Below, piece after piece: positions 2,263 to 38,470 of a stretch of 64,000 nucleotides of DNA. The DNA lies in contig NZ_CP108356.1 in the NCBI RefSeq assembly GCF_036237315.1, positions 2,108,001 to 2,172,000 on the forward strand, read 5' to 3'. Both the position numbers and the translations under genes were made by a program. Source of the stretch: Streptomyces sp. NBC_01351 (GTDB taxonomy: Bacteria; Actinomycetota; Actinomycetes; Streptomycetales; Streptomycetaceae). The first letter of the stretch is position 1. Each line of letters opens with the position of its first letter. The notes under the pieces are model-generated. The model saw nothing but the letters and a program-made list of their open reading frames with translations, did no database searches and was not told the origin of the DNA.

Positions 2263-4449
2263 ATGCCCGCGACCCCCACTCCCACCCCCTTCACGGCCCT
2301 CACGCACGACGACCCGACCCATGTCGGCGACTACCGACTCCTCGCCCGTCTCGGCAGCGGCGGCATGGGCACGGTCTACCTGGCCCGCTCGGCGGGCGGT
2401 CGTACGGTCGCTCTCAAGACCGTGCACGCCCGTATCGCGACCTCCGCCGACACCACCTTCCGTACCCGCTTCCGACTCGAATCGGACGCGGCACGCATCA
2501 TCGGCGACCGCTACGGAGCCCGCGTGTTCGGCGCCGATCCCCTGGCGCCAACCCCCTGGCTGGCCACGGAGTACGTCCTCGGCCCCCAACTCGACGAGGC
2601 GGTCCGCCTGAGCGGCCCCCTCCCCGAGCCCCTCGTCCGCGCCCTGGGCGCAGACCTGGCCCGGGCCCTGACCCAGCTCCACAACTCCGCCATCACCCAC
2701 CGCGACCTCAAACCGTCCAACGTCATGGTCACGGCGGCCGGCCCCAAGCTCATCGACTTCGGCATCGCCCGCGCCCTGGGCGACGAACGCCTCACCAGCA
2801 CCGGCACCGCGGCGGGCACCCCCGCCTACATGTCCCCCGAACAGGCCGGCGGCCTGGATCACACCCCGTCCAGCGACGTGTTCGCCCTCGCGGCAGTACT
2901 GGTCTTCGCAGCCTCCGGCCACGGCCCGTTCGGCGCCGGCCAACCCGCGGACCTCCTCTACCGCGTCCGCTACGCCGACCCCGACCTCACCGGCGTCCCC
3001 ACCCCCCTGCTCCCCCTCCTCACCCGCTGCCTGTCCAAGGACCCGTCCCTCCGCCCCACAACAACCGAACTGGCGGACGCCCTGCGCCCCGCAGAGGGCG
3101 GCACCTTCGCGGACCTCCTCCCCCACCCCGTACTCACGGACATCGCCCACCGCACGACAGCGGTCTGGCAGGCCCCACCACCCCGCCTACCGGCCCCCGC
3201 CACACAGCCCCCACCCCCCGCACCCCGCGCGATCTCCCGCCGCAAACTCCTCACCCTCACCCTTACCGGCACGGCAGCAGCCCTCGCCACGGGCGGCGGC
3301 CTCTGGACCTACCTGGCCACGAAGAGCCGAGAAGACACCTCAACCACCAAACCCTCGCTGGGACAGCCACCCACCCCGTCCTGGAAGACCTCGATCGCGG
3401 ACCCGGGCCCGGACGCGGCCCCCCTTCGCGTGGGCAGCGAACTCGTCCTGGTCGCAGGCCTGGCGGTCAACGCCTTCGACCCGACGTCGGGCAAGCTCCT
3501 CTGGCAGGGCCCCGACCGGGCCGCCTGGTCCGTGGCCACCGACGGCAAGACCCTCTACGCCCTCCGCCCCCCGACTTCCGACGACAAGACCAAGCCCGTC
3601 GCGATCGAGGTGCTCCCCCAGCCGTCCGGCAAGAAGAACCCGCCCGTCCTCACCCTGCCCTCCTTCGACGGCACGCCGGAGGACACCCAACTCCTGTGTA
3701 TCGCAGCAGACACGGCATACATGTTCGCCAAGTCGGCCACCACCACCCAGTGGTTCCTGATCGCGGCGAGCCTCACAACAGGCCGCGAACTGTGGCGTCA
3801 ACAGACGGTGGCCCCGTTCGCGGACTCGCCGGGACCCGTCATCATCCGCGCCAAGCCGGTGATGACCGGTCTGCTCCTGTGCCGCCGCTCGGCCCTCAAG
3901 GACTCCGTCACCTTCTCCCTGCACGACGCGTCCACCGGCAAGCAGCTCTGGCAGCAGCCACCCATCCCCACCACGGGCGCCCTGCCCTACCACCTGGCCA
4001 CGGACGACACCCACGTCTACCTGGGCTCCGAATCCCTCCAGGCCCTCCGCCTCACCGACGGCACCCCGGCCTGGTCCTTCGGCACGGGCCGCGACATGGG
4101 CAAGAAGCCGTACGGCTTCCGCCGCTACGGCATCCCCACGGTCGCGGACGGCGTGGTCTACGCGGTGGAGGGCGGCCGCAGCCTGGTCGCCGTAGACGCC
4201 CGCACGGGCGCGGCCCTCTGGACGGAACCCCCCGTACCGGATGCCCTCCCCAACGGCGACGTGGCTCCCGCGGTATACGGCACCCTCGTCCTCTACATGG
4301 ACGGAACGGGCCTCCGTGCGGTGGACACCCTCACCCACCGCCCCCTATGGCGCTACCCGACCACGGCCTACGCCCTCACACCCGACCCGGCCGCACAGCG
4401 CATCCACGCCCGCGAGGAACGCCAGACCCTGGCCCTCCCCCTCCCCTGA
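2263..4449 (+). CDS. Receptor-type Ser/Thr protein kinase with extracellular PQQ beta-propeller
   Basis: A 728-aa kinase starting 5 bp after the pseudokinase. Residues about 20-280 are a complete Hanks kinase: LGSGGMGTVY glycine loop, VALKT lysine, HRDLKPSNV catalytic loop, IDFGIA, and a Thr-rich activation loop (STGTAAGTPAYMSPEQ). A Pro-rich linker leads to ISRRKLL and one hydrophobic segment near residue 330 (LTLTGTAAALATGGG). About 390 residues of PQQ/WD-like propeller blades follow (LLWQGP, ELWRQQ, QLWQQP, ALWTEP, PLWRYP). It is expected to sit in the membrane with the kinase inside and the propeller outside. The substrate is unknown. Its neighbours suggest a three-gene signalling locus. 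Confidence 0.9.
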   Translation: MPATPTPTPFTALTHDDPTHVGDYRLLARLGSGGMGTVYLARSAGGRTVALKTVHARIATSADTTFRTRFRLESDAARIIGDRYGARVFGADPLAPTPWLATEYVLGPQLDEAVRLSGPLPEPLVRALGADLARALTQLHNSAITHRDLKPSNVMVTAAGPKLIDFGIARALGDERLTSTGTAAGTPAYMSPEQAGGLDHTPSSDVFALAAVLVFAASGHGPFGAGQPADLLYRVRYADPDLTGVPTPLLPLLTRCLSKDPSLRPTTTELADALRPAEGGTFADLLPHPVLTDIAHRTTAVWQAPPPRLPAPATQPPPPAPRAISRRKLLTLTLTGTAAALATGGGLWTYLATKSREDTSTTKPSLGQPPTPSWKTSIADPGPDAAPLRVGSELVLVAGLAVNAFDPTSGKLLWQGPDRAAWSVATDGKTLYALRPPTSDDKTKPVAIEVLPQPSGKKNPPVLTLPSFDGTPEDTQLLCIAADTAYMFAKSATTTQWFLIAASLTTGRELWRQQTVAPFADSPGPVIIRAKPVMTGLLLCRRSALKDSVTFSLHDASTGKQLWQQPPIPTTGALPYHLATDDTHVYLGSESLQALRLTDGTPAWSFGTGRDMGKKPYGFRRYGIPTVADGVVYAVEGGRSLVAVDARTGAALWTEPPVPDALPNGDVAPAVYGTLVLYMDGTGLRAVDTLTHRPLWRYPTTAYALTPDPAAQRIHAREERQTLALPLP

Positions 4450-4464
4450 CCGCAGATCACGGCA

Positions 4465-4494
4465 GGCTCCCCGGCGCGGTGACGCCGAGGAGCC
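4465..4494. terminator. Hairpin between convergent kinase and ABC permease genes
   Basis: GGCTCC-c-CGGCG pairs with CGCCG-a-GGAGCC across a six-base loop, with one internal mismatch. It lies 15 bp after the kinase stop and 73 bp beyond the permease stop on the other strand, a good place for a shared terminator. There is no T-run. Confidence 0.45.
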
Positions 4495-4567
4495 GAGCAC
4501 GTCGGGTGCCGAAGAGTACGGTCCCCAGGGCCTACGAAGTGCCTTCCGCAGGGGGCTTGGCGGTGGC

Positions 4568-5536
4568 TCAGAGGACCCGGCGGCGCAGCGACCAGGCGCC
4601 GAGGCCCAGGAGGGCGGCCGAGAGGGCGAGGAAGGCGGAGCTCTCGACCGTCTGGAAGGCCCAGAACTGGCTGGAGGGGTGGTAGTCGGCCGACTGCTGG
4701 GTCACACCCTGCTTGCCGAGGCAGCTCTGGATGGTCTCCGTACCGTCGCAACCGGACGGGTTGAAGGAGACCTTCCGGCCCGCGCTGTCGTAGTACGCGG
4801 ATCCGACCCGCCAGGCGTCGTCCGGGATCCAGCTGGTCCCGCCGCGCTCGCTCTCCCCGGTGCTCTGGGCGACCGTACCCGTGATCCGCTCGGCGGCGAG
4901 GTAGTGCGGACGGGCTCCCCCGCCGAGCGCGACGAGGACGACGAGGTAGAGCCCCAGGGTGATCGCCATGGCGGCGAGCGTGTTGCGCAGCAGCATTCCG
5001 GCGGCCACGCCGATGGCGAAGGCCAGGAGGGTGTACGCGGCCAGGACCAGCCCCTGTGTCTCGAAGCCAGGGGTCATCATGGGACCGCGCGTCACATGGT
5101 TGAGCGGCTTCAGGGCCCATACGCCGACCAGCCCCAGGACGAGCATGAGGACGGTGACCGGACCTCCGCCGACGAGCAGCTTGGTCGCCATCCAGCGGCG
5201 CCGGCTGACCGACTGGGTGAGCCCGAAGACGTGGGTGCCCTGCTCGAACTCGCCGGCGAAGAGCGGTGCACCGGCGAACATGCCGAGGAGCACCGGCAGG
5301 CACAGCAGCACCATCGGGATGATCGAGACGTATGACTTGTACTCGGAGCTCAGCGCGGCCATGGCGCTGCGCGAACAGGGGTCGGCGCCGATCCGCAGGC
5401 AGCCGGCGATCCCCCGGTCCTGCATGAAGGAGACGGCGTCGAACCGGTAGAAGAGCATCACGGCGCCCACCGCCGCGATGAGCAGGGCGGTGATGAGGAG
5501 CTGAAGGCGCTGCTGGCGCCAGGCGACCCAGATCAT
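4568..5536 (-). CDS. ABC-2 type transporter permease
   Basis: A 322-aa membrane protein starting MIWVAWRQQRLQ, the usual start of the Streptomyces ABC-2 permeases that pair with YtrA-type operons. About six hydrophobic segments are visible (near residues 15-32, 70-92, 120-140, 165-185, 190-210 and 295-312). A large loop between the fifth and sixth holds several Cys (SGCDG, QSCLG) and probably faces outside. The start codon overlaps the stop of the upstream ATPase gene by four bases (ATGA), so the two are translationally coupled. The transported substrate cannot be read from the sequence. Confidence 0.85.
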   Translation of the reverse strand: MIWVAWRQQRLQLLITALLIAAVGAVMLFYRFDAVSFMQDRGIAGCLRIGADPCSRSAMAALSSEYKSYVSIIPMVLLCLPVLLGMFAGAPLFAGEFEQGTHVFGLTQSVSRRRWMATKLLVGGGPVTVLMLVLGLVGVWALKPLNHVTRGPMMTPGFETQGLVLAAYTLLAFAIGVAAGMLLRNTLAAMAITLGLYLVVLVALGGGARPHYLAAERITGTVAQSTGESERGGTSWIPDDAWRVGSAYYDSAGRKVSFNPSGCDGTETIQSCLGKQGVTQQSADYHPSSQFWAFQTVESSAFLALSAALLGLGAWSLRRRVL

Positions 5537-6459
5537 GCTGCGGACACCTCCACGGCCTCGCTCTTGTGCGCAGACGGCCGCGCGGCCCTCAGGTGCGCCA
5601 ACGCCAGTTCCTCCAAGGTCGGTTCGTGCGCCTCCCAGCCAGGCAGCCCCGCCGGGCCCCTGCCACGGACGAGGACCGTGGCCTGGCGCTGGGTGCTGCG
5701 GGACTCCACGACGATCTCGTCCGGGAACGAGCCGGCCGCGCCCTGGGCGGGACCGACCATCAGTCGGTGGCCGGCGAGCAGGTCCTCGACGTCCCCGGCG
5801 AGCCGGACGCGCCCACCCGCCAGCAGGAGCAGGTGGTCGCAGATGCCCTCGAGATCGGCGAGGACGTGTGAGGAGAGCAGGACGGTCATCCCGGTCTCGG
5901 CGACCTCCTCCATCAGAGCCCGCATCACCTCCTCCCGGGCGAGCGGGTCCAGGTCGGCCAACGGCTCGTCCAGCACGATCAGTTCGGGCCGCCGTCCGAG
6001 CGCCATCGCGAGCGCGACACGGGTGCGCTGTCCGCCGGAGAGGGTGGAGATCCTCGCCCGGACGGGGACCCCGGCCGCGTCGACCAGGCGGCGCGCGTAG
6101 GTCTGGTCCCATTCGGCGTTCAACGCCCGGCCGGCTCGTAACATCTCCTCCACCGTGAACCGGCGGTAGAGCGGCTTGTCCTGCGCGAGGAAGGCCAGGC
6201 GAGGATGGGTGCCTCCTCGTCCCGGCGTATCGCCCAGGACGCGGAGCGTCCCGGCGGTCGGAGTCAGCAGGCCGGTGGCCAGCGCCATGAGCGTGCTCTT
6301 GCCCGCACCGTTGGGTCCGACCAGCGCGGACACCCGGCCTCGCGGCAGCTCGAACGTGACGTCCTTCAGCGCCCAGCCCCGCTTGTAACTCTTGCCCAGA
6401 CCGTCCGCCGCCAGTGCGGCGGTGCCCTCGGTGGTACCCAACGGGTCACGCTCCTTCAT
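5533..6459 (-). CDS. ABC transporter ATP-binding protein
   Basis: A 308-aa cytoplasmic ATPase with Walker A GPNGAGKST (about residue 50), Q-loop AQDKPLY, signature STLSGGQRTRVALA, Walker B LIVLDEPLADLD and H-loop SSHVLADLE, all intact. The domain is single, so it must work as a dimer on the downstream permease (overlap of four bases). The C-terminal 80 residues are a less conserved accessory part ending in AHLRAAR. It follows a GntR gene by 10 bp, the standard order gntR-ATPase-permease of YtrA-like operons, often induced by cell-envelope-active compounds. The substrate is unknown. Confidence 0.92.
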   Translation of the reverse strand: MKERDPLGTTEGTAALAADGLGKSYKRGWALKDVTFELPRGRVSALVGPNGAGKSTLMALATGLLTPTAGTLRVLGDTPGRGGTHPRLAFLAQDKPLYRRFTVEEMLRAGRALNAEWDQTYARRLVDAAGVPVRARISTLSGGQRTRVALAMALGRRPELIVLDEPLADLDPLAREEVMRALMEEVAETGMTVLLSSHVLADLEGICDHLLLLAGGRVRLAGDVEDLLAGHRLMVGPAQGAAGSFPDEIVVESRSTQRQATVLVRGRGPAGLPGWEAHEPTLEELALAHLRAARPSAHKSEAVEVSAA

Positions 6460-6469
6460 GTGTCATATG

Positions 6470-6847
6470 TCAGTACTGCGCGTCGATGACGGCCTTGACC
6501 AGCGCTTCGACGTCCTCGCGGGACAGGCCCTCGGCCCGGGCGACCGCCGTCCACGCCTCCAGGTCCCGGCGCAGCGGCGAGTCCTTGGCGGCGGCCGGGC
6601 CGGCCAGGGAGCGCTGGACGAAGGTGCCGAGGCCGGGCCGCGGCTCAACGAGCCCCTCACGCTCAAGTTCCCGGTAGGCCTTGAGCACCGTGTTCGGATT
6701 CACCGCTGTGGCGGCGACCACTTCCTTGGCCGTGGGGAGGCGGTCTCCCACCTCCAGGAGGCCGAGTCGCAGCGCGTGCTTGACCTGCTGCACCAGCTGC
6801 AGGTACGTGGCCACTCCGGAACGGCGGTCGATCCGGAACTCGATCAC
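6470..6847 (-). CDS. GntR-family (YtrA subfamily) transcriptional regulator
   Basis: A 125-aa repressor type. Residues 1-75 are a GntR winged helix (ATYLQLVQQVKHALR, LPTAKEVVAATAVNPNTVLKAYRELEREGLV, GLGTFVQ). A short helical tail (about 45 residues) follows instead of a ligand domain, as in YtrA regulators. The GTG start at 6847 is chosen because the GntR domain begins right after it (IEFRIDRRS) and a GAAGGG ribosome site lies just upstream. A perfect inverted repeat 12 bp before the start is the likely autoregulatory operator. It probably represses itself and the ABC genes until a drug or peptide signal lifts repression. Confidence 0.9.
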   Translation of the reverse strand: MIEFRIDRRSGVATYLQLVQQVKHALRLGLLEVGDRLPTAKEVVAATAVNPNTVLKAYRELEREGLVEPRPGLGTFVQRSLAGPAAAKDSPLRRDLEAWTAVARAEGLSREDVEALVKAVIDAQY

Positions 6848-6858
6848 GCAACACCCTT

Positions 6859-6876
6859 CCACTAATCTGTTAGTGG
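6859..6876. promoter_or_regulatory. Candidate GntR operator (perfect 7-bp inverted repeat)
   Basis: CCACTAA-TCTG-TTAGTGG is an exact inverted repeat with a 4-bp spacer, 12 bp upstream of the gntR GTG start and just before the ribosome site. The YtrA branch typically binds such repeats in its own promoter. This is inferred from position and symmetry only. Confidence 0.6.
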
Positions 6877-6942
6877 AATCATGATGGAGGGGTCCGATCC
6901 GTGGTGTCAAGCACATCGGCGGGAAGCGGCGGGGCGGCCGTG

Positions 6943-8763
6943 CTACGCCTCTTGGTACGCCTCGGCCTGAAGGCGGAACAGCCGGGCGTAGGTGCCGTCC
7001 TGAGCCATGAGCACCTCGTGGTCGCCTTGCTCGATGACCCGGCCCGCGTCCAGGACGTAGATCCGGTCGGCGTCGCGCACATTGGCGAAGCGGTGCGAGA
7101 TGAGCACCACCGTGCGGTCCGTGAACAGTTCGCGGATCCGGCCGAAGAGGTCGGCCTCGGCCTGCGGGTCCAAGGAGGCGGTGGGTTCGTCGAGGATGAC
7201 GAGCGGCGAGTCCCGGTAGAAGGCCCTGGCCAGGGCGAGGCGCTGCCACTGACCGAGCGAGAGATCGGCGCCGCCGGTGAATTCCTTGCTCAGTACGGTG
7301 TCGTAGCCCTGGACCAGCCGGGCCAGGAACTCGTGGGCCCCGGCTCGCTCGGCGGCCAGCACCGCCCGGGCCCTGTCCGGCGATGTCTCGGGGCGGCCGA
7401 ACGTGATGTTGTCGGCGGCCGTCAGCTTGTACCGCACGAAGTCCTGGAACACGACGGCGCTCGCCGCGCGCAGTCGCTCCGGCTCGGCGTCCGCGTCCCC
7501 GTCACCGTCCCCGTACAGGAGGCGCCCGGAGTCCGGCCGGTAGAGGCCGGCCAGGATCTTCGCAAGGGTGGTCTTGCCCGAGCCGTTGGCGCCGACCAGG
7601 GCCACGACCTCCCCGGCCCGTACCTCGACGCTGACGTCCTCCAGGGCCCGGGCCGAGGATCCCGGGTAGCCGAAGGCCACGGACTCCGCGCGCACCGACA
7701 CGAACTCCCCTGATGAGAAGGCCGGTTCGCCGGGTTCGGATCCGGCTTCCGCCGCGAAGCCTCGTAGATCCTTCATGTACAGGACCGACTCGCCGATGCC
7801 GTTGAGCAGGGCGCCGATCATCTGCGTACGCAGCGACAGCTGCCACAGGCCCACGAGCGCGGTCAGCGCGGTCGCCGGCTCGATCCGGCCGGTCGCCACC
7901 AGCCACCACATGGCCCCGATCACCGCGCCCGTGGTCAGGTCGCCTGCCAGGCGTGCCACGATCTTGCGTCGGACGTGGACCGCGTGCATGGCCTCGACCT
8001 GGGCGATCTCCTGACCGTAGCGGCTCGTCCAGCGCCCGCGCAGCGTTCCGGCGAGCCCCAGGGCGCGGATCTCCTTCGCCTCGTCGCGGCCGGTGAGCAG
8101 CCGTTCGAGGTACTGCCGGGCCCGGCGGTTCTCGGACAGCGTGTGGTGCAGGTCGTAGCCGGCCCCCCGCTCGTCGCGGGCGGCCTTGAGCGTGGGCAGG
8201 ACCGCGAGGAGGGCGAAGGGCAGGAGCCACCAGACCAGTACGGCGAACACGGCCGTGACCGCGACCACGGTCAGAACGGCCTGGAAGCCCGCGGCCAGAG
8301 CCGTCACGACCATCGCGGGCTGGGCGCGCGAGGCGAAGACCGCCCGCTGAAGCCGGTCGTGGAAAGCCGGGTCCTCGAACTCGGGAAGCTCCGCACGTCC
8401 GGCGGCGTCCAGGACGATGTCGAGCGCGAACCGGTCCACCTTGACGGCGAGCACTCGCTGGCGGGCTCCGGCGACCGCGCGCAGGATGCCCGCTCCCGTA
8501 CCCAGCAGCACCAGGCCGGCGATCACGGCGATCAGCCACTCGCCCTGCGGGGCCTGGGTCGTCGGGCCGCCCTGGGTGACGGCGCCGCCGACCGCATGGC
8601 GGATCAGCAGCAGAACCGCCATCAGCCCCAGGGCGGTGGCCAGTTGGGCCACGAGTACCTGGAGCAGGCTGCGCCGGTCGGCTTGCCAGGCCAGCCGTAC
8701 GGCGAACATCGCACAGTCGGCCAGCTCCCTCAGGGGCACCGATGCACTTCGGTCACGGGCCAT
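6943..8763 (-). CDS. ABC exporter (fused membrane and ATPase domains) of the RiPP operon
   Basis: A 606-aa half-transporter. Residues about 20-330 hold the membrane domain with roughly six hydrophobic segments. Residues about 350-600 hold the ATPase: Walker A GANGSGKTT, signature LSLGQWQRLALA, Walker B LVILDEPTASLD and a SHRFAN switch. The LSLGQWQRLALAR signature is common in exporters of lasso and lanthipeptide clusters. There is no N-terminal C39 peptidase, so leader removal must be done by another protein. The gene abuts the S9-peptidase gene (stop TGA directly followed by ATG) and is last in the operon. Likely job: export of the mature peptide and self-protection. Confidence 0.88.
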   Translation of the reverse strand: MARDRSASVPLRELADCAMFAVRLAWQADRRSLLQVLVAQLATALGLMAVLLLIRHAVGGAVTQGGPTTQAPQGEWLIAVIAGLVLLGTGAGILRAVAGARQRVLAVKVDRFALDIVLDAAGRAELPEFEDPAFHDRLQRAVFASRAQPAMVVTALAAGFQAVLTVVAVTAVFAVLVWWLLPFALLAVLPTLKAARDERGAGYDLHHTLSENRRARQYLERLLTGRDEAKEIRALGLAGTLRGRWTSRYGQEIAQVEAMHAVHVRRKIVARLAGDLTTGAVIGAMWWLVATGRIEPATALTALVGLWQLSLRTQMIGALLNGIGESVLYMKDLRGFAAEAGSEPGEPAFSSGEFVSVRAESVAFGYPGSSARALEDVSVEVRAGEVVALVGANGSGKTTLAKILAGLYRPDSGRLLYGDGDGDADAEPERLRAASAVVFQDFVRYKLTAADNITFGRPETSPDRARAVLAAERAGAHEFLARLVQGYDTVLSKEFTGGADLSLGQWQRLALARAFYRDSPLVILDEPTASLDPQAEADLFGRIRELFTDRTVVLISHRFANVRDADRIYVLDAGRVIEQGDHEVLMAQDGTYARLFRLQAEAYQEA

Positions 8764-10332
8764 TCAGTTCGTCTCCAGCTTCTCCAGCCACGCCCGGTGT
8801 TCCTCGGCCACGGCCGCGAGTGCTTCGCGGGACTGGAAGGTGTGACCCTCCTGGGGGAGCAGCACCAGCCGGGCGGTGCCGCCGGTGGCGACCACGGCCC
8901 TGTACAGCTCGACGGCCTGTTCGGGAGTGGTGGCGGGGTTGATGTCGTCGGTGCCGTGCACGAGGAGCACCGGGCGGTCCAGCCGGTCCGCGAAGCAGAG
9001 GGCGCTGAATGCCTGGTAGACCTCCGGGGCGGCCCACAGTGAACGCCGCTCGTAGTGGAACCCGTTCGGGGTGGAGGTGCGGTTGTAGCAGCCGCTGTGC
9101 GCCACGGCCCCTGCCAGCTCCGGGAGTCGGGCGAGGGCATGCAGCGCGAGGGTCGCACCGAAGCTGTGGCCGCCGACGGCGACCGCGGTGTCGGCGTCGG
9201 TGGCGGTCAGCAGGCCGAGGGCGGTGGACACCGCGGTGGTGATCTGGCTGTTCAGCAGGGCGGGCCGGGCGTCGTCCGGCCAGTGCAGCGGCAGGTCGAG
9301 CAGGGCGGATGGGTGTGCTCCGGCGGCCAGGAACTGCGGAATTCCGTCCGATGGCGGCTCTCCTCGGCGCAAGGCCCGGATCCACAGCAGCAACGGACCG
9401 GAGCCGTCGTGCGGCAAGAGGGTGAGCCTGGCATCGCCGAAACCGGTGGGGATCGCGTGGACGGTCGACGGATCACGGAGTGCGGGCCGTCGCGGTGCTT
9501 GTGCTGGCTGTCGCGCGGCTTGTGCGGGCGGACTCGGTACTGGCGACGGCGCTACGGGCACCAGCCGGCCAGGGCCGCCGGCGGGGTCCAGGCGCGAGGT
9601 GGCCCAGGACAGTCCGTGCTCGTCCGGACCGGTGCCGGCCGGGTGGACGTGCCCGAGCACCAATCCGTCCGGACGCGCGACCAGGGAGCGGACCAGCAGA
9701 GTGGGCCCCACGATCTCCGGGGCCGCGTCCTGTGGTGCGAGCAGAGCGAGGCGGGTGCCCACCGTGCGGACGAGCTCGTCCTGGCCCGGCTCGAATCCGA
9801 CGAACGCCGGTCCCGTGGCCTCGAAGACCGCCGGCCGCCACACGGGTTGCTCCGCGGGGTTCCGCTGCGGGGCCGGCATCAGCAGTGCCAGGCGCCCGTC
9901 CGCGTACCAGGCGAGCGGTGGCAGTCCCGGTTCAGTGAGACCGGTCGCCGCGCGCGTCTGCGGGTAGCGGCGGACCGTACGCTCCGCGAGGTCGGCGATC
10001 CACGGATGGGCGAGGTGGTCGTCGTCCACCGCGAGTCCCGCCACCAAGGGCCTGTGCGGATGCCACACGAGCGGGATCGGCAGGACGTCGGCGACCGGCA
10101 GTTCCCAGCCGTCGTCCGGTCTCCCCGTGGTGAAGAACTCGATCCGCAAGGGCCTGGCCCGGCCCGGCACGGCTCCCGCCAGTGCGGGATCGAGGACGAG
10201 GGTGCGCCAGTGAACCGGCGAGGGGTGGCGTTCGGCGACGGGCGGATGGACGGGCGAGGTCACCTCGGCCCACCTGTGTCCGTCCGGGCCCTGGTCCCGG
10301 CGCCGCCGCGTGCGGTGGAGGTCAGCGGGCAC
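8764..10332 (-). CDS. S9 (prolyl-oligopeptidase-like) serine peptidase of the RiPP operon
   Basis: About 522 aa. The first 300 residues look like a small, divergent beta-propeller. The last 220 are an alpha/beta-hydrolase with nucleophile GGHSFGAT (Ser390), HGTDD (Asp462/463) and EGHTF (His497), so the triad is complete. No signal peptide is seen. It overlaps the upstream gene by 11 bp; a GTG 75 bp inside (VTSPVHPP) is an alternative start. S9 enzymes act in peptide biosynthesis as leader peptidases, macrocyclases (plant PCY1, fungal POPB) or lasso isopeptidases. Because the B2 protease partner here lacks its Cys and His, this enzyme is the best candidate for leader cleavage. That role is inferred. 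Confidence 0.8.
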   Translation of the reverse strand: MPADLHRTRRRRDQGPDGHRWAEVTSPVHPPVAERHPSPVHWRTLVLDPALAGAVPGRARPLRIEFFTTGRPDDGWELPVADVLPIPLVWHPHRPLVAGLAVDDDHLAHPWIADLAERTVRRYPQTRAATGLTEPGLPPLAWYADGRLALLMPAPQRNPAEQPVWRPAVFEATGPAFVGFEPGQDELVRTVGTRLALLAPQDAAPEIVGPTLLVRSLVARPDGLVLGHVHPAGTGPDEHGLSWATSRLDPAGGPGRLVPVAPSPVPSPPAQAARQPAQAPRRPALRDPSTVHAIPTGFGDARLTLLPHDGSGPLLLWIRALRRGEPPSDGIPQFLAAGAHPSALLDLPLHWPDDARPALLNSQITTAVSTALGLLTATDADTAVAVGGHSFGATLALHALARLPELAGAVAHSGCYNRTSTPNGFHYERRSLWAAPEVYQAFSALCFADRLDRPVLLVHGTDDINPATTPEQAVELYRAVVATGGTARLVLLPQEGHTFQSREALAAVAEEHRAWLEKLETN

Positions 10333-11170
10333 GGCCGGCCGCCTGGACGGAGGCGAGGGTGATGCCGTCGATGAGGGCCTTGACGGCCCCTATGCCGGAC
10401 GCGGGGGCGCACACGGGTTCACCGGCGTCGTCGAGGCCGATCGCGCAGGGCACGCCGAGTCCGTGCATGACCCCGGGGAGCTCTGCCTCCTTCGCCACGG
10501 TGATCATGCTGACGGCGGCCAGCCGCTCTGGTTCGACGGCGGCCAGGAGGTGCTTGAGCGAGCGGCACGACGGGCAGTCGTCGGCGACGTACAGCCGGAC
10601 CGTGCTGACGTGTTGTGCACAGGGTGGGGTGTTCGCCGCGTCCGAGGCCCGGCGCCGGTCGGCCGCCAGGAGGGCGATCAGGGTGAGCGCCGCGGCGACA
10701 GCGGTGGCAGCCGCGCGTGGCAGCGGCTTCGCACCCGCTGCCGCGTCGGACAGGATGAGCACGGCTGCCGCGAGCACTGCGGCCGCGGCGTTCGCGCCGA
10801 TGTGGGCACGGCCCACGGCGGCGAGCCGGGCCAGGCCGAAGCAGGCGCACTTCTGGCCCCGGGCGCTGACGGCGACTGCGGCGAGGGCGACGTACGCGAG
10901 GAGTGCGACGGCCGCGGCCCAGCGCACCGGGAGCAGCAGCACGGCGCCGGTCGCGGCGAGTTCGGCCGCACCGACCAGACGGGGGCCGTGGGGCGCGGCC
11001 AGGATGCCGGAGCGGATGGGCCACGACAGCTTCTCCGGGGCTGTGACCAGCTTGGCCGCGCCGGCCACGGCGAGCGGCCCGGCGGTGGCGGCGAGGGCGA
11101 GATCCGCCGGCCGGACGCCGAGGAGCGGACCGTCCGCGAAAGCGGCCAGGGCTGTCAGGGCTGTGGACAT
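10322..11170 (-). CDS. MauE-like membrane protein fused to a thioredoxin-type domain
   Basis: A 282-aa protein. Residues 20-170 are Ala/Leu-rich with four or five membrane segments, and include CACFG (Cys108, Cys110), matching the CxCFG motif of the MauE/DoxX-like family. Residues about 190-270 look like a thioredoxin fold with a CPSC redox motif (Cys199, Cys202; VADDCPSC). MauE proteins support disulfide formation in methylamine dehydrogenase, so this fusion is a plausible dedicated oxidase or isomerase for a disulfide-rich peptide. The gene is 2 bp from B1 and overlaps the peptidase gene, so it belongs to the operon. It matches a precursor with six cysteines very well. Confidence 0.82.
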   Translation of the reverse strand: MSTALTALAAFADGPLLGVRPADLALAATAGPLAVAGAAKLVTAPEKLSWPIRSGILAAPHGPRLVGAAELAATGAVLLLPVRWAAAVALLAYVALAAVAVSARGQKCACFGLARLAAVGRAHIGANAAAAVLAAAVLILSDAAAGAKPLPRAAATAVAAALTLIALLAADRRRASDAANTPPCAQHVSTVRLYVADDCPSCRSLKHLLAAVEPERLAAVSMITVAKEAELPGVMHGLGVPCAIGLDDAGEPVCAPASGIGAVKALIDGITLASVQAAGRAR

Positions 11171-11172
11171 GG

Positions 11173-11460
11173 TCAGGAACTCCGATCCGGTACGAGCCAG
11201 CCGGCCGCGATCAGCTGAGCGGTGAAGCGGGCCACGGGCGCGCCCGCCTCGGGCGGCGGGACGCCGACACCGAGCAGCCGGCCGAGGATTTCGGCGTCGC
11301 GCTCCCCGCAGTCGCTCACGGCGAGGCTGGATCCGGCGGCGAGCACGGCGCCGCCGAACGGCAGTGGTGTGAGGGTGACTCGCTCACCGAGCCGCAAGGG
11401 GGTGCCTGGCGGGGGCAGTTGCGGGAGCGGGGGCGGCGTGGTGGAGGGTGTGGTCGTCAT
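11173..11460 (-). CDS. Lasso-type B1 protein (PqqD-like RiPP recognition element)
   Basis: A 95-aa protein. After a Pro-rich N-terminus, residues about 28-95 fit a PqqD-like RRE (LRLGERVTLTPLPFGGAVLAA, DCGERDAEILGRLLG, ARFTAQLIAAGWLV). B1 proteins bind the leader peptide, usually at a YxxP motif, and hand the precursor to B2 and C. The precursor here does have YSEP in its leader. The start ATG shares one base with the stop of the upstream C gene (TGATG). It acts in the cytoplasm. Confidence 0.8.
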   Translation of the reverse strand: MTTTPSTTPPPLPQLPPPGTPLRLGERVTLTPLPFGGAVLAAGSSLAVSDCGERDAEILGRLLGVGVPPPEAGAPVARFTAQLIAAGWLVPDRSS

Positions 11461-12965
11461 CAGCGCTCCCTCAGCCAACGGTCCAGCCAGACGAGGCGCA
11501 GCAGGGGCAGGGCCTGGGTGGCGAGGGAGCGGCCGTCGCGCAGGCTCGCCACGATCAGCCGGGGCTCCAGCAGGCCCAGGTCCCCCAGAGCACATTCGCG
11601 TTCCAGCTCGGACGTGATCTTCTTGCGTTCCCGGTGGAGATGGGCCGCCGCTCCCAGCCGCAGCCAGTGTCCGGGGGAAGCCGCGCGTAGATCGGTGACA
11701 CCCGCCCGCTCGACCGCGCGCCGCAGCGGCAGATGGTTCTCGAACGCGCCCCGGCGGATCCGGCCGAGCTTGTGGGGTGGCAGGGCGGCAGCCGCGGCGA
11801 GCACGCCGAGGTCCATGGCGGGGAGGACGGCACCGGCCACGCCCTGTTCGGCCAGACCGCCGACGAGTCGGCCGACTACGGGTTCCTCGGCGTCGAGCTG
11901 GTCCTGCCAAACCGCCATCGCACCACGGTGGGCCGTCTCATAGGCCTGTCTGCCCTCGTCGGTCAGCCAGGGAAGCTTCGTGCCACCGGTCGGTGACGGC
12001 GGTGGGGGCGCGCCCAGCTGCTGCGCGTCGGGACCGCTGCCTGCCGTGTCGCGCCGACCGGGGGTGTAGACGACGCGGTTGTCGAGCAACTCCCGGGCTT
12101 CGGCGAGGGTGCTGAGGGTCCCGGAGATGTGGAACGGTTCGCAGCCGAGCAGCCGCCACGCCTTCGTGCCCCGCGGCACGTCGGGAAGCTTGACGGAGAC
12201 CAGCGACTCCAGCAGCGCCCCGGAGACCAGGGGCAGTCCGGTGTCGGCGGCGAGAGCGGCGTACAGCCGGGCGGGGACCTCGAAGTCCGGGAGCGGAGGC
12301 AGGTGTTCGGCGCCGCTGACCGTGTGGTGGTCGAGCAGCTCGTGCAGGTCGAGGGCGACCCTGCGCGACTCGACACCGGGTACGGGCGCCTCCGGTGGCC
12401 GCGTGCCCCGCGGGCCGAAGCCGGGCAGCCCGAAATCGGCGTGCACGAGGTGGGCGCGATGGCCGGCGGCCGCGGCGAGCACGGCGAGGTAGGCGGAGGC
12501 CAGACCACCGCTGTAGGCGAGGCCGTACTCGTCACCGGCCGAGGCCAGCACCCGCGTCACCGCATGGGACAGGTCTCCGTCCGCCGCCGGTAGTGCGACG
12601 CGCTCGCGGGTCACGGTGACCCCCCGGGCGTCCACCCGGATGCGGGTGCCCGCGGTCATCCTCCGGACGCCGGACAGAGGCGTCCCGTCGGGGGGCGAGG
12701 CCTGGCCGTGCAGCATGGCGAGCAGTGCCCCGGGCTCGGGCTCCACGCGCCCGCCGGGCGGCAGGAACGCGGCGAGGTCCCCTCCCCATTCGAGGCGTCC
12801 GGGGCGCGCCCGGAAGTAGACGGGACGCACGTCCGGCCGGGGCCGACGCAGTTCGAGCGAGTGGTCCGTGCGGTCGGTCAGGACGCCCAGGGCGGAGGCA
12901 CCGTCGGGTTCGGTGCAACGCAGAACGGCGCCCGTCATCTCGGCCACGGCCGGCACGGCGCTCAT
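11460..12965 (-). CDS. Asparagine-synthetase-like lasso cyclase homologue (C protein), ATP motifs degenerate
   Basis: A 501-aa protein with the layout of lasso cyclases: an N-terminal part like the glutaminase domain of AsnB but without Cys2 (starts MSAVPAV), then a synthetase domain. At the PP-loop it reads YSGGLASA (residues 151-158) where ATP-binding members have SGGLDSS. Further on, LVSGALLESL stands where AsnB-type enzymes have TGEGGDELF. Both changes remove acidic residues used for Mg-ATP. It may therefore be a pseudo-enzyme or use a changed chemistry. It overlaps B2 by four bases (ATGA). Assignment to the family is firm from context and fold motifs; loss of activity is my reading by eye. 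Confidence 0.8.
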   Translation of the reverse strand: MSAVPAVAEMTGAVLRCTEPDGASALGVLTDRTDHSLELRRPRPDVRPVYFRARPGRLEWGGDLAAFLPPGGRVEPEPGALLAMLHGQASPPDGTPLSGVRRMTAGTRIRVDARGVTVTRERVALPAADGDLSHAVTRVLASAGDEYGLAYSGGLASAYLAVLAAAAGHRAHLVHADFGLPGFGPRGTRPPEAPVPGVESRRVALDLHELLDHHTVSGAEHLPPLPDFEVPARLYAALAADTGLPLVSGALLESLVSVKLPDVPRGTKAWRLLGCEPFHISGTLSTLAEARELLDNRVVYTPGRRDTAGSGPDAQQLGAPPPPSPTGGTKLPWLTDEGRQAYETAHRGAMAVWQDQLDAEEPVVGRLVGGLAEQGVAGAVLPAMDLGVLAAAAALPPHKLGRIRRGAFENHLPLRRAVERAGVTDLRAASPGHWLRLGAAAHLHRERKKITSELERECALGDLGLLEPRLIVASLRDGRSLATQALPLLRLVWLDRWLRER

Positions 12966-13363
12966 TGGTCCCCCGATCGGTGAACCTCGATGTACTCCTC
13001 CCGTACGGGCAGGGAGGTGCTGACCACCTTTCCGTCGCACTCGACCCAGGCGTAGAAGCCCGCGGGCGGGGAGGCGGGGACGACTTCGCGGCCGAGGTGG
13101 AAGGTGGCGGGCAGCCCGACTCCGCGCAGGCCCGCGGTGAGGTAGACCGCGTCCTCGACGGGGTCGAGGAAGCCTGTCGTGAGGCGTTGCGCGACGCGAA
13201 GCCACGCAACGGCCCGGCCGACGGCCCGCGGCGTGGGCCGCAGGTCTCCGCGCCCGGCGGGCCACCGGTCGATCTGGTAGATGCCGCCTCCCGCGCGTGC
13301 CGCCGCCAGGAAGGCAGCCGCTTCGCGTGCGGACCGTGGCACCGCGAACAGTCCTGTCGCCAT
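12962..13363 (-). CDS. Lasso-type B2 protein (transglutaminase-like) lacking catalytic Cys and His
   Basis: A 133-aa protein matching the B2 leader peptidase family in its second half: GFLDPVEDAVYLTAGLRGVG aligns with the usual region containing CLxRSLAL, and GFYAWVECDG with the HAWVEVDG block. At the catalytic Cys position there is Phe65, and at the catalytic His there is Tyr104. The only Cys (109) sits after WVE. So the Cys protease is probably inactive. Length is slightly short for the family. It is the first gene after the precursor, 170 bp downstream, and overlaps the C gene by four bases. It may remain as a leader-binding or scaffold partner of B1. Confidence 0.75.
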   Translation of the reverse strand: MATGLFAVPRSAREAAAFLAAARAGGGIYQIDRWPAGRGDLRPTPRAVGRAVAWLRVAQRLTTGFLDPVEDAVYLTAGLRGVGLPATFHLGREVVPASPPAGFYAWVECDGKVVSTSLPVREEYIEVHRSGDQ

Positions 13364-13418
13364 GCGTATCCGACCTTCCGATCCCCCGTCCCCGTTTCGA
13401 GCGGGACGGACCTGAAGC

Positions 13419-13471
13419 GGAATCCGCCGGACCGCCGCACGGGCGCCCGCTTCCGCCGTCCGGCGGATTCC
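13419..13471 (-). terminator. Strong stem-loop between precursor and B2 genes (attenuator-like)
   Basis: GGAATCCGCCGGAC at 13419-13432 pairs perfectly (14 bp) with 13458-13471 around a 25-base GC-rich loop. It lies 63-115 bases after the precursor stop and 56 bases before the B2 start. There is no U-run after it. RiPP operons often hold such a hairpin to give more precursor than enzyme mRNA, by partial termination or 3'-end protection. Confidence 0.6.
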
Positions 13472-13533
13472 ACTCGTTCATGTCACAAGACCGCGTTCAC
13501 CGGAGGCCGGTGCGACCGCGGCGGGGCGCCTGT

Positions 13534-13716
13534 TTACGCGTAACGACAGGTCCACCACTCGCAGATGAGGCCGACCGACTCGTTGCAGCAGTCCGAGTCC
13601 CACCAGCAGCTGTATCCCGCCATGCGGCACTCCTCGGCGACCGCCGTGGGCTCCGAGTAGAGGTGCTGCTGCAGACCGTTGCTGGCGAGTTGCGAGGCAA
13701 TCGAAGTAACCGGCAC
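13534..13716 (-). CDS. RiPP precursor peptide with knottin (ICK-like) six-cysteine core
   Basis: A 60-aa peptide starting at a GTG with an ideal ribosome site (AAAGGGG, six bases upstream). Residues 1-29 are a leader containing Y20-SEP-P23, which fits the YxxP motif bound by lasso B1 proteins. The rest starts at Cys30 and has Cys30, 37, 43, 44, 52 and 57, that is C-x6-C-x5-CC-x7-C-x4-C, the cysteine framework of inhibitor cystine knots. The sequence around it (Glu-Cys start, DSDCC, aromatic EWWTCRYA end) recalls animal and plant knottins. An ordinary lasso ring is hard to place: from Cys30 there is no Asp/Glu at positions 7-9; Gly34 to Asp40 or Asp42 would fit but leaves Cys30 in the leader. 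It is first in the operon. Confidence 0.85.
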   Translation of the reverse strand: MPVTSIASQLASNGLQQHLYSEPTAVAEECRMAGYSCWWDSDCCNESVGLICEWWTCRYA

Positions 13717-13916
13717 AGTTTTCCCCTTTCTGATGAGAATGGCGCCGTGATCCGAATGGACAAGCACGGCATCCAAATTCCGACGAGGGGAACGCTAGCC
13801 ACAGCACGACGGAGCACGGAATAGGAGAAGGTCCGGAATCGTGTCCGGGACAGAACGGGACAGCCCGCAGGCCGACTCCCGGCAATGCGCCACGTTCGGA
13901 CATGCCGCCAAATGCG

Positions 13917-13946
13917 TTGACTCGACCGAGGACAGCCAACTACCGT
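13917..13946 (+). promoter_or_regulatory. Candidate sigma-70-type promoter for the Nudix/APH gene
   Basis: TTGACT, an 18-bp spacer and TACCGT (fits TAnnnT) end 58 bases before the ATG at 14005. It lies in the 288-bp divergent region between this gene and the precursor peptide gene. I could not find an equally good promoter for the precursor on the other strand. Confidence 0.4.
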
Positions 13947-14004
13947 GCCTCATTTACGAAGACGTACTTCGAGTTTCTCGCACGCACGGGGGTGTGGCGC
14001 AGGT

Positions 14005-15378
14005 ATGCGGCAAGTCACGGGGGAGCTGTTCGGAATCGTCGGCCGACGACGGGACACGGGGACGGAGGTACTGCTCCTCCCGGGTCCCGACGGCTGGTCC
14101 CTGCCCCGGCTGCACCACCGCGACCCACCTGCCGCGCACGCCGAGATCGCCGGGCGCTTCGGCCTCACCGTCACCACACGCGACTGCCTCGAACAACGCG
14201 ACGCCCAGGCCAGGGCCGGGGCGCGCTACTACGTCCACGAGGTCCACACCGACCCGACGGCCTCCGACGCCACCTCCCCCAGAGACGCGGGTGCGCCTCA
14301 CGGGCCTACGGACGGCCGCTGGTTCGGGGCTGCGGAGCTGGCCGGCGCGGCCCTGGATTCCGGCCAACGCCAGGTTCTGGAACGGTGCTTCGCGGAGGCC
14401 ACGGACACCGCCCCGGCCTCAGGGGCCAAGGCGGGCCTGCCGTGGACCCGCGAGGGTTGGTACGCGACGGCGGCGGCCTGGGCCGACGAGCAGCTGCGCC
14501 GCGCCGGGATCACCCCCGTCGGCCCACCCGAGCAACCGTTTCTGCGAGCGTGGTCGTTCCAGTTGCGGATCCCCGTGGCGCACGGGGCGGTGTACTTCAA
14601 AGCCTCGCCGCCGGTCTTCGGACACGAGGCCGAGGTGACGCGGCTGCTGTCGGACCGATTTCCAGCCGGTATCCCCCGAGTTCTGGCCACCGACGTGAAA
14701 CGGCACTGGATGCTGACCGATGACTTCGGTCCCGTGCACCGCCCGGCTTCCGCCGAGGCCGTCGAGGGGTATGTGCGCATGGTTCCTCAACTGGCCGCAA
14801 TTCAGCGGTTTACCGAGGACCACACCCGGGCATTGGTCGCCGCTGGATGCCCGGATCACCGTACAGCCAGGCTTCCTGAACTCCTCGCGGAACTGATCGA
14901 GGACAATGAGCGGCTCGAATCAGCCGAAAGACATCGGCTTGCCGACTACGTCCCGTATTTCCGCGACCTCTGCGCGGAGCTGGAAAGCGCGGGTGTCCCG
15001 GACTCCCTGGTCCATCTGGACATCTGGCGCGGAAACTTCATCGACCGGGACACGGGACCGCTCCTCTTCGACTGGGCGGAAAGCGTGCTCGGTCATCCCT
15101 TCATCTCGCTCGACGTGGCCCTTCGGGACCTGAGGTCGGCGGCACCCGGCGACGCGAGCGCCGTACGGCGCGTGACCGACGCCTACCTCCGCCAGTGGTC
15201 CGACCTCGTTCCGATGGAGCGCCTCGTGCGAGCCGCCCGGCTCGCCCCGACCGCCGGCATCGTCAGCCGCGCACTGTTGTGGCAGGACGCGCTCAAGGCT
15301 CTGGACCCGGAACGGGCCCGCCCGTACGCGGGGACGGTCGCGGCCCAGCTGCGCGAGCTGCTGCCCGACTCCGGCTGA
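14005..15378 (+). CDS. Fusion of degenerate Nudix-like domain and APH-family kinase
   Basis: A 457-aa protein. Residues 1-135 resemble a Nudix fold (ELFGIVGRR, LLLPGPDGWSLPRL, WFGAAEL) but the Nudix box with its Glu residues is not present. Residues about 150-455 are an aminoglycoside-phosphotransferase/choline-kinase fold: a lysine in VYFKAS, the catalytic loop VHLDIWRGNF (HxDxxxxN) and LLFDWAE. So the kinase half looks active. It is divergent from the knottin-type operon. APH-like kinases can modify small molecules or give self-resistance, and in this setting it may modify the peptide or protect the host; neither is shown. The ATG is chosen over an upstream one at 13945 because the Nudix-like domain begins at once. 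Confidence 0.72.
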   Translation: MRQVTGELFGIVGRRRDTGTEVLLLPGPDGWSLPRLHHRDPPAAHAEIAGRFGLTVTTRDCLEQRDAQARAGARYYVHEVHTDPTASDATSPRDAGAPHGPTDGRWFGAAELAGAALDSGQRQVLERCFAEATDTAPASGAKAGLPWTREGWYATAAAWADEQLRRAGITPVGPPEQPFLRAWSFQLRIPVAHGAVYFKASPPVFGHEAEVTRLLSDRFPAGIPRVLATDVKRHWMLTDDFGPVHRPASAEAVEGYVRMVPQLAAIQRFTEDHTRALVAAGCPDHRTARLPELLAELIEDNERLESAERHRLADYVPYFRDLCAELESAGVPDSLVHLDIWRGNFIDRDTGPLLFDWAESVLGHPFISLDVALRDLRSAAPGDASAVRRVTDAYLRQWSDLVPMERLVRAARLAPTAGIVSRALLWQDALKALDPERARPYAGTVAAQLRELLPDSG

Positions 15379-17115: not shown

Positions 17116-18582
17116 GTGTTACCCGATCGTTCGCCGTCGTCCGCCTGTACCCCGCCGGAGCCCGGTGATGCCCGCACTCCAGGGGAGTTCAACGCCATGC
17201 TCCGGCTGCTCAAGGAAAGCGCGGGACTCACCTTCCGCCAGTTGGAGAACCGTGCCGGCCGGGCGGGCCGGCGGCTGCCCCGCTCCACCATCGCCTCCGC
17301 ACTGACCCGGACCACCCTGCCCCGCGAGGAGTTCACCGAGGCTCTCGTCTCCGCCTGCGGCCTGGACGCGCGGCCCTGGCTGGCCGCGCGTCGCCGACTC
17401 GCGTGCGCGCAGCCCCCACAGCCCACCGCGGCGGCCGTGGTCCCCGCCCGAACCACATCGCTCCGCCCCGCATTGATACCCCGTCAGCTGCCCTTCTGTC
17501 CGCCCGACCTGACCGGCCACGAGCATCGGCTCGCCGACTTGATCGCCCTACTGACCGACCCGCGCTCTCCGGCACCCTCAGCCGTCATCAGCGGTCCGCC
17601 GGGGGCGGGGAAATCGGCCCTCGCAGTACGGGCCGCGCACCGAGTGGCCGCTCACTACCCGGACGGGCAGCTCTACGTACAACTGCGCGGCACGACTCCG
17701 CACGCCGAGCCCCTCACACCGGCGGAGACGATCGCCAGGCTCCTGCGTGGCCTGGTCATGCCCGTTCCCGCACCGCCCCACGACGCCTCGGAGACGGCCG
17801 CCCTGCTCCGGTCGGCACTCACCGGCCGCCGCATGCTCATCCTGCTGGACGACGCGGCGTCGGCAGCGCAGGTGCGCCCCCTGCTGCCGACAGGCGGCCA
17901 CAGCGCACTGCTCGTCACCGCCCGCTCGAGCCTGACCTCTCTGGACGGACCCCGATCCTTCCCGCTCGGAACGCTGCTGCCCGGCGAGGCGTACACCATG
18001 CTGGAGCAGCTCCTCGGCAGCGAGCGCGTCGCGCGTGATCCGTCGGCGGCCTTCCGACTGGCCGAACTGTGCGGGTGGCTCCCGCTGGGGCTGCGCGTCG
18101 CCGCCGCCCGGCTGACCGCGCGGCCTCGCTGGCCCCTGTCCCTGCTCGTCGACCGGCTCGCCGACGAGAGCACCCGGCTGGACGAACTGCGGGTGGACGA
18201 GCTGCAGATCCGGGAGAGCCTCGCCGTCAGCTACCGGGCGCTGCGGCGCACCGACGGCGCGTCGGGCACGGCGGTGCGGGCCTTCCTCCTCTTCGGCTCC
18301 ATGCGACTTCGGGAAGCCGGAATACCTCTCCTGTCCAAGCTGCTGTGCGTGCCGCTCGCCGAGGCCGAGCGGGCCGCCGAGCGACTTGTCGACTCGAGCC
18401 TGGCCGAGAGCACCGGCCCGGGCCGCTACCGAATGCACGACCTCGTCCGTATCTACGCAGGCGAACAGGCGGACCAGGAGCTGCCGGCGGAAGCCCGCGC
18501 CAACAGACCGCAGACCCTCGCGGTCGAGCAGCCGCAGAGACTCGTCCGTTGCGATCACGGCTCGGCAGTGGGGCGAAGGTGA
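17116..18582 (+). CDS. STAND/NB-ARC signalling ATPase with N-terminal HTH, lacking the usual C-terminal repeats
   Basis: A 488-aa protein with GTG start after GGGAG. Residues about 25-95 look like a helix-turn-helix (LTFRQLENRAG, LPRSTIASAL). Residues about 130-440 are an NB-ARC ATPase: P-loop ISGPPGAGKSAL, Walker B MLILLDD, GLPL-like WLPLGLRVAA and MHDLVRIYA. Relatives (AfsR/DnrI-like) then run into several hundred residues of TPR repeats. Here the protein stops about 40 residues after MHDLV, with a low-complexity tail (RANRPQTLAVEQPQRL). It may be truncated or frameshifted. The end lies 167 bp before the left repeat of the proposed island, so the truncation may be linked to insertion. Confidence 0.72.
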   Translation: MLPDRSPSSACTPPEPGDARTPGEFNAMLRLLKESAGLTFRQLENRAGRAGRRLPRSTIASALTRTTLPREEFTEALVSACGLDARPWLAARRRLACAQPPQPTAAAVVPARTTSLRPALIPRQLPFCPPDLTGHEHRLADLIALLTDPRSPAPSAVISGPPGAGKSALAVRAAHRVAAHYPDGQLYVQLRGTTPHAEPLTPAETIARLLRGLVMPVPAPPHDASETAALLRSALTGRRMLILLDDAASAAQVRPLLPTGGHSALLVTARSSLTSLDGPRSFPLGTLLPGEAYTMLEQLLGSERVARDPSAAFRLAELCGWLPLGLRVAAARLTARPRWPLSLLVDRLADESTRLDELRVDELQIRESLAVSYRALRRTDGASGTAVRAFLLFGSMRLREAGIPLLSKLLCVPLAEAERAAERLVDSSLAESTGPGRYRMHDLVRIYAGEQADQELPAEARANRPQTLAVEQPQRLVRCDHGSAVGRR

Positions 18583-38318: not shown

Positions 38319-38470
38319 GTGTACCGCTCCCCCAAGATCACCACACAGGTGCAAAGACTGTACGAGGATCCGTTGCCGACCGGCGGGCATCGGACGGGCA
38401 CCGGCCACGCACTGGCCGGAATCAGTGGCTGGCCTGCATACCCAGGAACGATGTCGTCAGGTCCGTATAC

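Follow-up and report, generated by a model that had tools for sequence, protein, structure and literature searches.

The window, i.e. the whole stretch of 64,000 nucleotides of Streptomyces sp. NBC_01351 DNA that was analysed, carries on its minus strand seven genes in the order precursor, B2-like, C-like, B1-like, MauE/thioredoxin-like, S9 hydrolase and ABC transporter. The precursor gene A (13534..13716, minus strand) codes for a peptide of 60 aa and begins with a GTG start codon, ahead of which a ribosome binding site, GAAAGGGG, can be observed at 13723..13730 (minus strand). An earlier sequence-only reading of this DNA had described both the ORF and the ribosome site, and both are present where it had placed them. 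It had also put the precursor first in an operon, and the genes for a B2-like protein of 133 aa (12962..13363), a C-like protein of 501 aa (11460..12965) and a B1-like leader-binding (RRE-type) protein of 95 aa (11173..11460) do lie downstream on the same strand. They are accompanied by genes for a 282-aa protein combining a MauE-like membrane domain with a thioredoxin/glutaredoxin-like domain (10322..11170), an S9-family alpha/beta hydrolase of 522 aa (8764..10332) and an ABC transporter of 606 aa (6943..8763), all on the minus strand. From the B2-like gene onward the ends of the genes overlap or abut.

A scan of species genomes with the alignment of C-like proteins yielded 24 loci, distributed over the genera Streptomyces, Actinomadura, Lentzea, Saccharothrix, Actinoplanes, Kribbella and Kibdelosporangium. 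All 24 loci show the order precursor, B2, C, B1, while MauE-thioredoxin and S9 genes are present at 20, the exceptions being L074, which stops shortly past B1, and L064, L065 and L069. A comparable ABC transporter gene was found at 16 of the 24 loci, within the stretch fetched per locus. In the genus sample, the C-like gene was detected in 7 of 392 genomes. The protein database contained homologues of the precursor (53) and of the C-like protein (59), whose names, where given, were hypothetical, Dickkopf-like, UPF0506 or asparagine synthase. The alignments of 24 rows (A10, A13 and A14) consist of the window and 23 of the 24 loci, L069 being omitted; the sequences of the MauE (14) and S9 (8) alignments were picked for unbroken matches.

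Some of the loci depart from the common layout. At L064, L065 and L069, opposite-strand genes follow B1, and MauE-thioredoxin, S9 and transporter genes are absent; moreover, Cys spacing is aberrant (13 and 0) in the L064 and L069 precursors. These three loci are possibly decaying clusters. At L018, the region 5672-6137 encodes a second precursor joined to a B2 tail, and MauE-thioredoxin and S9 are retained; a C gene was looked for at this locus and none was found. The arrangement suggests a deletion within a cluster that is decaying.

The B1-like protein matches NF038044 (actinodefensin-associated protein B) with 72.7 bits at a cut-off of 45, and a match at E<=0.01 was obtained for all 24 aligned B1 proteins. 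Over the phylum sample, NF038044 gave one match in 396, namely the window's own. The B1 family had already been named after actinodefensin by NCBI, and that link was known before. The family goes beyond the knottin loci: among the weak matches L010-L012, those of G036 and G048 adjoin canonical lasso B2. At another locus, L017 (the second NF038044 match in G143; 4273-6838), B1 adjoins an asparagine-synthetase-like protein with an intact SGGIDS, and an upstream ORF contains a B2-like CLHES...HAW stretch, so that this locus is apparently an intact cousin.

The MauE-thioredoxin protein of the window contains CACFG and CPSC motifs, and CACFG together with CPxC is invariant in the 14 aligned proteins of this type. 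The Pfam MauE family was matched by two of these 14 (best 8.5e-5), and the window's own protein gave no match. The S9 hydrolase (Peptidase_S9, 9.6e-14), a candidate leader peptidase, has the residues S390, D463 and H497, which are invariant in 8/8 aligned S9 hydrolases; no membrane or signal-like segment was found in its sequence. The ABC transporter (ABC_tran, 1.1e-29) is a candidate exporter.

When NF038044 was run against 327 genomes from a related order, a single match was obtained, at locus L091, and the comparison of gene sets with actinodefensin operons was made with this one locus. Three products of L091 exceed their profile cut-offs, namely an actinodefensin with 118 bits (cut-off 65), protein A with 676 bits (cut-off 250) and protein B with 81.6 bits (cut-off 45). 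Genes for MauE-thioredoxin, ABC transporter and S9-like hydrolase proteins come next, followed by those for a protein of 126 aa and a subtilisin-like protease. The 126-aa protein, which has no Cys in its sequence, is homologous to the B2-like protein of the window (97.3%, E 1.6e-11, 60 columns). Homology was also found for the MauE-thioredoxin (E 4.8e-14) and S9 (E 2.2e-20) proteins, and the B1 proteins belong to the same NCBIfam family. The ATPase part of the ABC transporter is 31% identical to that of L091, a level that any ABC protein might show. Protein A of L091 and the C-like protein gave a weak single-protein hhalign match (29.5%, E 5.7e-4), and the protein A profile NF038043 (act_def_A) matched, at E<=0.1, five of the 24 C-like proteins, the best at 0.0054 and far under the cut-off of 250 bits; over the phylum sample, NF038043 gave 0/396. 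Homologues of B1, B2, MauE-thioredoxin and S9 are therefore also present in an actinodefensin operon, while the link of C is weak.

According to the consulted part of the actifensin paper (PMC6989792), the actifensin operon comprises afnA, three hypothetical genes, an ABC transporter, an alpha/beta hydrolase, a protein of unknown function, a subtilisin-like protease and LuxR. The gene order of L091 agrees with the operon as given there (PMC6989792), and its genes may correspond one to one to the unnamed genes of that operon. Of the known systems, the actifensin operon comes closest, with homologous B1, B2-like, MauE-thioredoxin and S9 proteins, an ABC transporter and a six-Cys peptide whose leader ends in Glu. 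It differs from the operon of the window in that the latter has ICK rather than defensin spacing, a C protein that is related to protein A doubtfully at best, another gene order, and no subtilisin among the tested operon genes; in a Pfam scan of the operon genes at positions 4568-13716, neither subtilisin nor LuxR genes were found. In the consulted sections of the actifensin literature (PMC6989792, PMC8819291, PMC12284004), a statement on the likeness of these genes to lasso machinery was not found.

The six cysteines of the precursor are arranged as C-x6-C-x5-CC-x7-C-x4-C, as claimed in the sequence-only reading. That reading would have been abandoned had the cysteines varied among relatives, and it had proposed looking for further precursors of this pattern next to B1, B2 and C genes. 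Such relatives were found at 24/24 loci. Of the 34 precursors examined at 29 loci (the 24 and five further ones, three of them on contigs already among the 24), 33 had all six cysteines. The sole precursor without them is the second one of L018, joined to the B2 tail. In the precursors of the 29 loci, the first three gaps between cysteines are constant (6, 5 and 0), the fourth measures 3, 4, 7, 8 or 13, and the fifth 0, 4, 5 or 11. In the protein database the spacing fits 50 of 53 precursor homologues, and the three misfits are P0052, which has no Cys, P0054, which has an extra segment, and P0055, the fused precursor. The pattern C-x6-C-x5-CC-x3-13-C-x0-11-C was matched 28 times among 7405 six-frame segments no shorter than 30 aa, in 531,035 bases made up of the window and 40 loci, canonical lasso loci accounting for 16 of the latter; 28/28 matches are these precursors.

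A chance ORF was considered and ruled out, the Cys spacing being confined in 531 kb to these precursors. Close precursor pairs differ mostly at synonymous codons, as in the window and L060 (13 synonymous and 4 non-synonymous codon differences), but the pair L061 and L067 shows 11 synonymous and 12 non-synonymous differences.

The fold was analysed with 29 aligned precursors, which comprise the window, P0007, P0009 and 26 sequences from the 24 loci; left out are P0003-P0006, P0008, the loci beyond the 24 and L069, which is almost identical to L064. A profile of this alignment matched 46 PDB chains at E<=10, with tau-theraphotoxin-Hs1a as the best match (4.6e-4). Judged by their names, most of the matched chains are venom peptides, and the top row alone lies below 1e-3; the non-venom matches include two Dickkopf-related chains and NFAP. 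At E<=0.1, the Pfam families matched by the precursors were Conotoxin (17/29), Dickkopf_N (15/29), UPF0506 (13/29, best 6e-6), Toxin_35, which is described as an ICK or knottin scaffold (8/29), and Toxin_12 (7/29). The top Pfam match of the window precursor itself was UPF0506 at 0.018, under the cut-off. These profile matches depend mainly on Cys spacing and indicate a likeness of scaffold rather than of descent. The six-Cys order and spacing resemble those of the knottins (ICK peptides) known from spiders, cone snails and insects, from which the present precursors differ in being bacterial and in having a RiPP-like leader and a dedicated operon.

The six cysteines might instead adopt another fold, with a Dickkopf/colipase-like or a defensin-like pairing. 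The Dickkopf matches in Pfam and PDB point in this direction, as does the sister operon, which makes a defensin. However, the C-C-CC-C-C order and the ranking of the PDB matches favour ICK, and the actinodefensin precursor profile NF038042 matched 0/29 precursors at E<=1, so that we consider such a pairing decidedly unlikely. Another profile, NF047792 (CCPGW putative bacteriocin), matched 2/29 precursors weakly; over the genus it gave 0/121, and no control was matched by it either. As judged from these comparisons, the knottin reading of the precursor is well supported. The predicted mature peptides of the window and its relatives are acidic, with a net negative charge in 25/29, and in most of them a Trp lies beside Cys5-Cys6. 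Typical defensins are cationic, in contrast to these acidic cores, which counts against the explanation proposed below.

The presence of B1-, PF13471 B2-like and C-like proteins together is a likeness to lasso systems, and the sequence-only reading had ascribed the peptide to lasso-peptide machinery. All 24 B2-like relatives match Transglut_core3 (PF13471), the match of the window protein being over the cut-off. Its match to lasso_biosyn_B2 (NCBIfam) stayed under the cut-off (19.5 against 33 bits), and hhalign against 14 lasso B2 proteins was weak in two runs (3.8%, 29 columns). The link of the B2-like protein to lasso B2, weak by hhalign, is drawn from PF13471 and gene context. In the alignment with the 14 lasso B2 proteins, the catalytic Cys of lasso B2 falls on Asp67 or Pro68, depending on gap placement, and the His falls on Tyr. 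The same loss was seen at 24/24 loci, with no Cys at the FLDPVED site and His replaced by Tyr or Phe, and 7/24 aligned B2-like stretches have no Cys anywhere; the control lasso B2 proteins have CLxRS and HAW in 14/14. In the lasso enzymes, a Cys-His-Asp triad of McjB is poised for leader cleavage and McjC forms the ring (consulted part of PMC11420955).

The C-like protein is a degenerate relative of asparagine synthetase and lasso C, which it matches by hhalign (94.3%, E 1e-7, 413 columns, against 14 canonical lasso C proteins); Pfam Asn_synthase was matched by just 1/24 C-like proteins. The ATP-loop SGGxDS is replaced by SGG-x-A/S/G-S (SGGLAS in the window), and the Asp is missing in 59/59 homologues, 53 of which were matched by script and six read from the script output. 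Residues of the ATP loop of McjC are essential. The GGD-type motif of lasso C has no counterpart in the alignment, a GG[DE]E motif was found in 0/59 C-like proteins, and GGD triplets occur at scattered positions in 10/59 homologues; the control lasso C proteins have SGGxDS in 14/14 and GGD[EHQ] in 12/14. With the catalytic Cys and His missing from the B2-like protein, and the ATP-loop Asp from the C-like protein, lasso chemistry is unlikely. The assignment to lasso machinery therefore stands as far as relatives of B1, B2 and C are concerned and is not supported as far as working enzymes are meant, the catalytic residues being gone from B2 and C in every relative examined.

Close to the lost GGD-type site lies the sequence CEPFH, which all 24 aligned C-like proteins share unchanged; among the 59 homologues, 51 have CEPFH, 3 have CQPFH and 5 have neither. 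The C- and/or B2-like proteins could thus perform a new reaction, for example via CEPFH, by which the peptide would be further modified. The good conservation of both proteins and of CEPFH speaks for this, whereas the five homologues without either motif speak against it, as does actifensin, whose mass is 6 Da below the linear form, equivalent to three disulfides and no other modification (consulted part of PMC6989792). We regard a new reaction as unlikely, and have retained it because CEPFH may mark a new active site.

The predicted leader (residues 1-28, 13633..13716, minus strand) contains a conserved Q16-Q17-H18, with Q17 in 29/29 and H18 in 28/29 precursors, and would end with the likewise conserved V26-A27-E28; V/T-A/E-E is found directly ahead of C1, or one residue off, in 25/29 precursors. 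The YxxP that had been taken for a leader motif, Y20-S-E-P23 in the window, fails as a trait of the family: position 20 is H in 10, F in 9, Y in 8 and N in 2 of the 29 precursors, and position 23 is P in 20, A in 4, T in 3 and Q in 2. A lasso leader has a Thr at -2 and, further upstream, YxxPxL spanning -17 to -12 (consulted part of PMC10368454). Neither is present here, since C1 sits seven residues after position 23, so that YxxP is wrongly spaced from the core, and there is no Thr just ahead of C1. The canonical lasso precursors of the control loci L043, L045, L049 and L052 have a YEPPxLxEVGDFAELT-like stretch ahead of the core. A leader common to actinodefensin was also considered; the same register was obtained in two comparisons, yet 74/400 shuffles reached the score, and the common leader was not accepted as proven.

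The differences from lasso systems hence lie in the lost catalytic residues, the leader layout and the position of B2 ahead of C rather than behind it. They also bear on the reading of the product as a true lasso peptide, in which Gly34 would be joined to Asp40 or Asp42 in a 7- or 9-residue ring, in addition to the disulfides. The spacing in the window fits such a ring, a Gly at C1+4 occurs in 21/29 precursors and an acid 7-9 residues on in 27/29, and the relatives of B1, B2 and C are at the locus. Both a Gly at this place and an acid at this distance are common in ICK peptides. Furthermore, residue 34 is Tyr or Asn in 8/29 precursors, in L082 neither position 40 nor position 42 is acidic, Cys30 is invariant even though it would then fall in the leader, neither Thr(-2) nor YxxPxL at -17 to -12 is found, and B2 and C lack their catalytic residues. 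A true lasso peptide is accordingly very unlikely. An additional lasso-type ring on the knotted peptide is likewise unlikely, because the catalytic residues of B2 and C and the lasso leader layout are missing.

What remains of the sequence-only reading is a knottin-type precursor, conserved across relatives and encoded beside relatives of B1, B2 and C, and what is not supported is a working lasso machinery as its maker. The sequences show the precursor family with its conserved cysteines, the set of genes and the loss of catalytic residues, as well as homology to actinodefensin operon proteins for B1, B2, MauE-thioredoxin and S9. We consider it probable that the six-Cys peptide, predicted to be an ICK peptide, is matured on a complex of lasso-enzyme relatives without the catalytic residues, which would serve as a scaffold for leader docking and folding instead of closing a ring. 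B1 would bind the leader at the QQH region, and the B2- and C-like proteins would form a remnant lasso complex that holds the core. The MauE-thioredoxin membrane protein would then oxidise the core, with the pairing C1-C4, C2-C5 and C3-C6. Membrane and thioredoxin proteins are also encoded in those class I lasso clusters that carry genes for DoxX and thioredoxin, as in that of sviceucin, where DoxX-family membrane and thioredoxin proteins lie near B1, B2 and C (consulted part of PMC9266682), the difference being that the two domains are fused in one protein here. Against this role, in sviceucin a thioredoxin-like gene is dispensable for the disulfides, and an sviF deletion still yields sviceucin, according to the same sections (PMC9266682).

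The leader is proposed to be cut after V-A-E28, because V/T-A/E-E fits the Glu at -1 of actifensin, whose mature peptide has 37 residues by N-terminal sequencing (consulted part of PMC6989792). Most actinobacterial defensins are excised at an acidic residue, as stated in the consulted part of PMC8819291. The S9 hydrolase would be the best candidate peptidase for this cut; against it stand the missing membrane or signal-like segment and the additional subtilisin of the actinodefensin operon. The ABC transporter would finally export the linear peptide of residues 29-60 (predicted mature knottin, 13537..13632, minus strand), with a calculated monoisotopic mass of 3818.43 Da with three disulfides; for the alternative products of residues 30-60 and 28-60, the values are 3689.39 and 3947.47 Da. 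By analogy, the product is probably a linear ICK peptide, and its role probably bacteriocin-like, as for actifensin, which binds lipid II (consulted part of PMC12284004).

Most of these proteins also occur in the actinodefensin-type operon, and therefore one shared machinery likely matures two disulfide folds. A more far-reaching idea, that a lasso synthetase complex without its former chemistry has turned into a disulfide-knot chaperone for bacterial knottins and defensins, is put forward tentatively, as we judge it possible but more likely wrong than right. The proposed maturation would link lasso peptides, bacterial defensins and knottins, which are commonly studied separately, by one maturation set, would suggest a role for the genes listed as hypothetical in the consulted part of the actifensin paper (PMC6989792), and would show bacteria making three-disulfide knots with dedicated proteins. 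A search of the open-access literature gave no recognised description of a bacterial knottin with B1, B2 and C genes. Knottins are valued scaffolds, and the question of a folding scaffold made of enzyme relatives without active sites is open to direct test.

Two genes on the plus strand of the window are also found at some of the other loci. The gene at 17116-18582 is HTH/NB-ARC regulator-like and AfsR-like (11/24 loci), and the one at 13945-15378 is kinase-like (7/24); they are possibly a regulator and an accessory gene, respectively. Elsewhere in the window, the region 21891-45340 encodes a DrmD-matching helicase (2.6e-79), together with a restriction-methyltransferase of type IIG for which DrmMI was a further match (7.4e-51). 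The DrmD and DrmMI genes are followed by two long ORFs (35241-38408, minus strand, and 38516-45340, plus strand) that, by eye, look like helicases. As judged from these matches, the region is likely a phage-defence island of a DISARM-like type.
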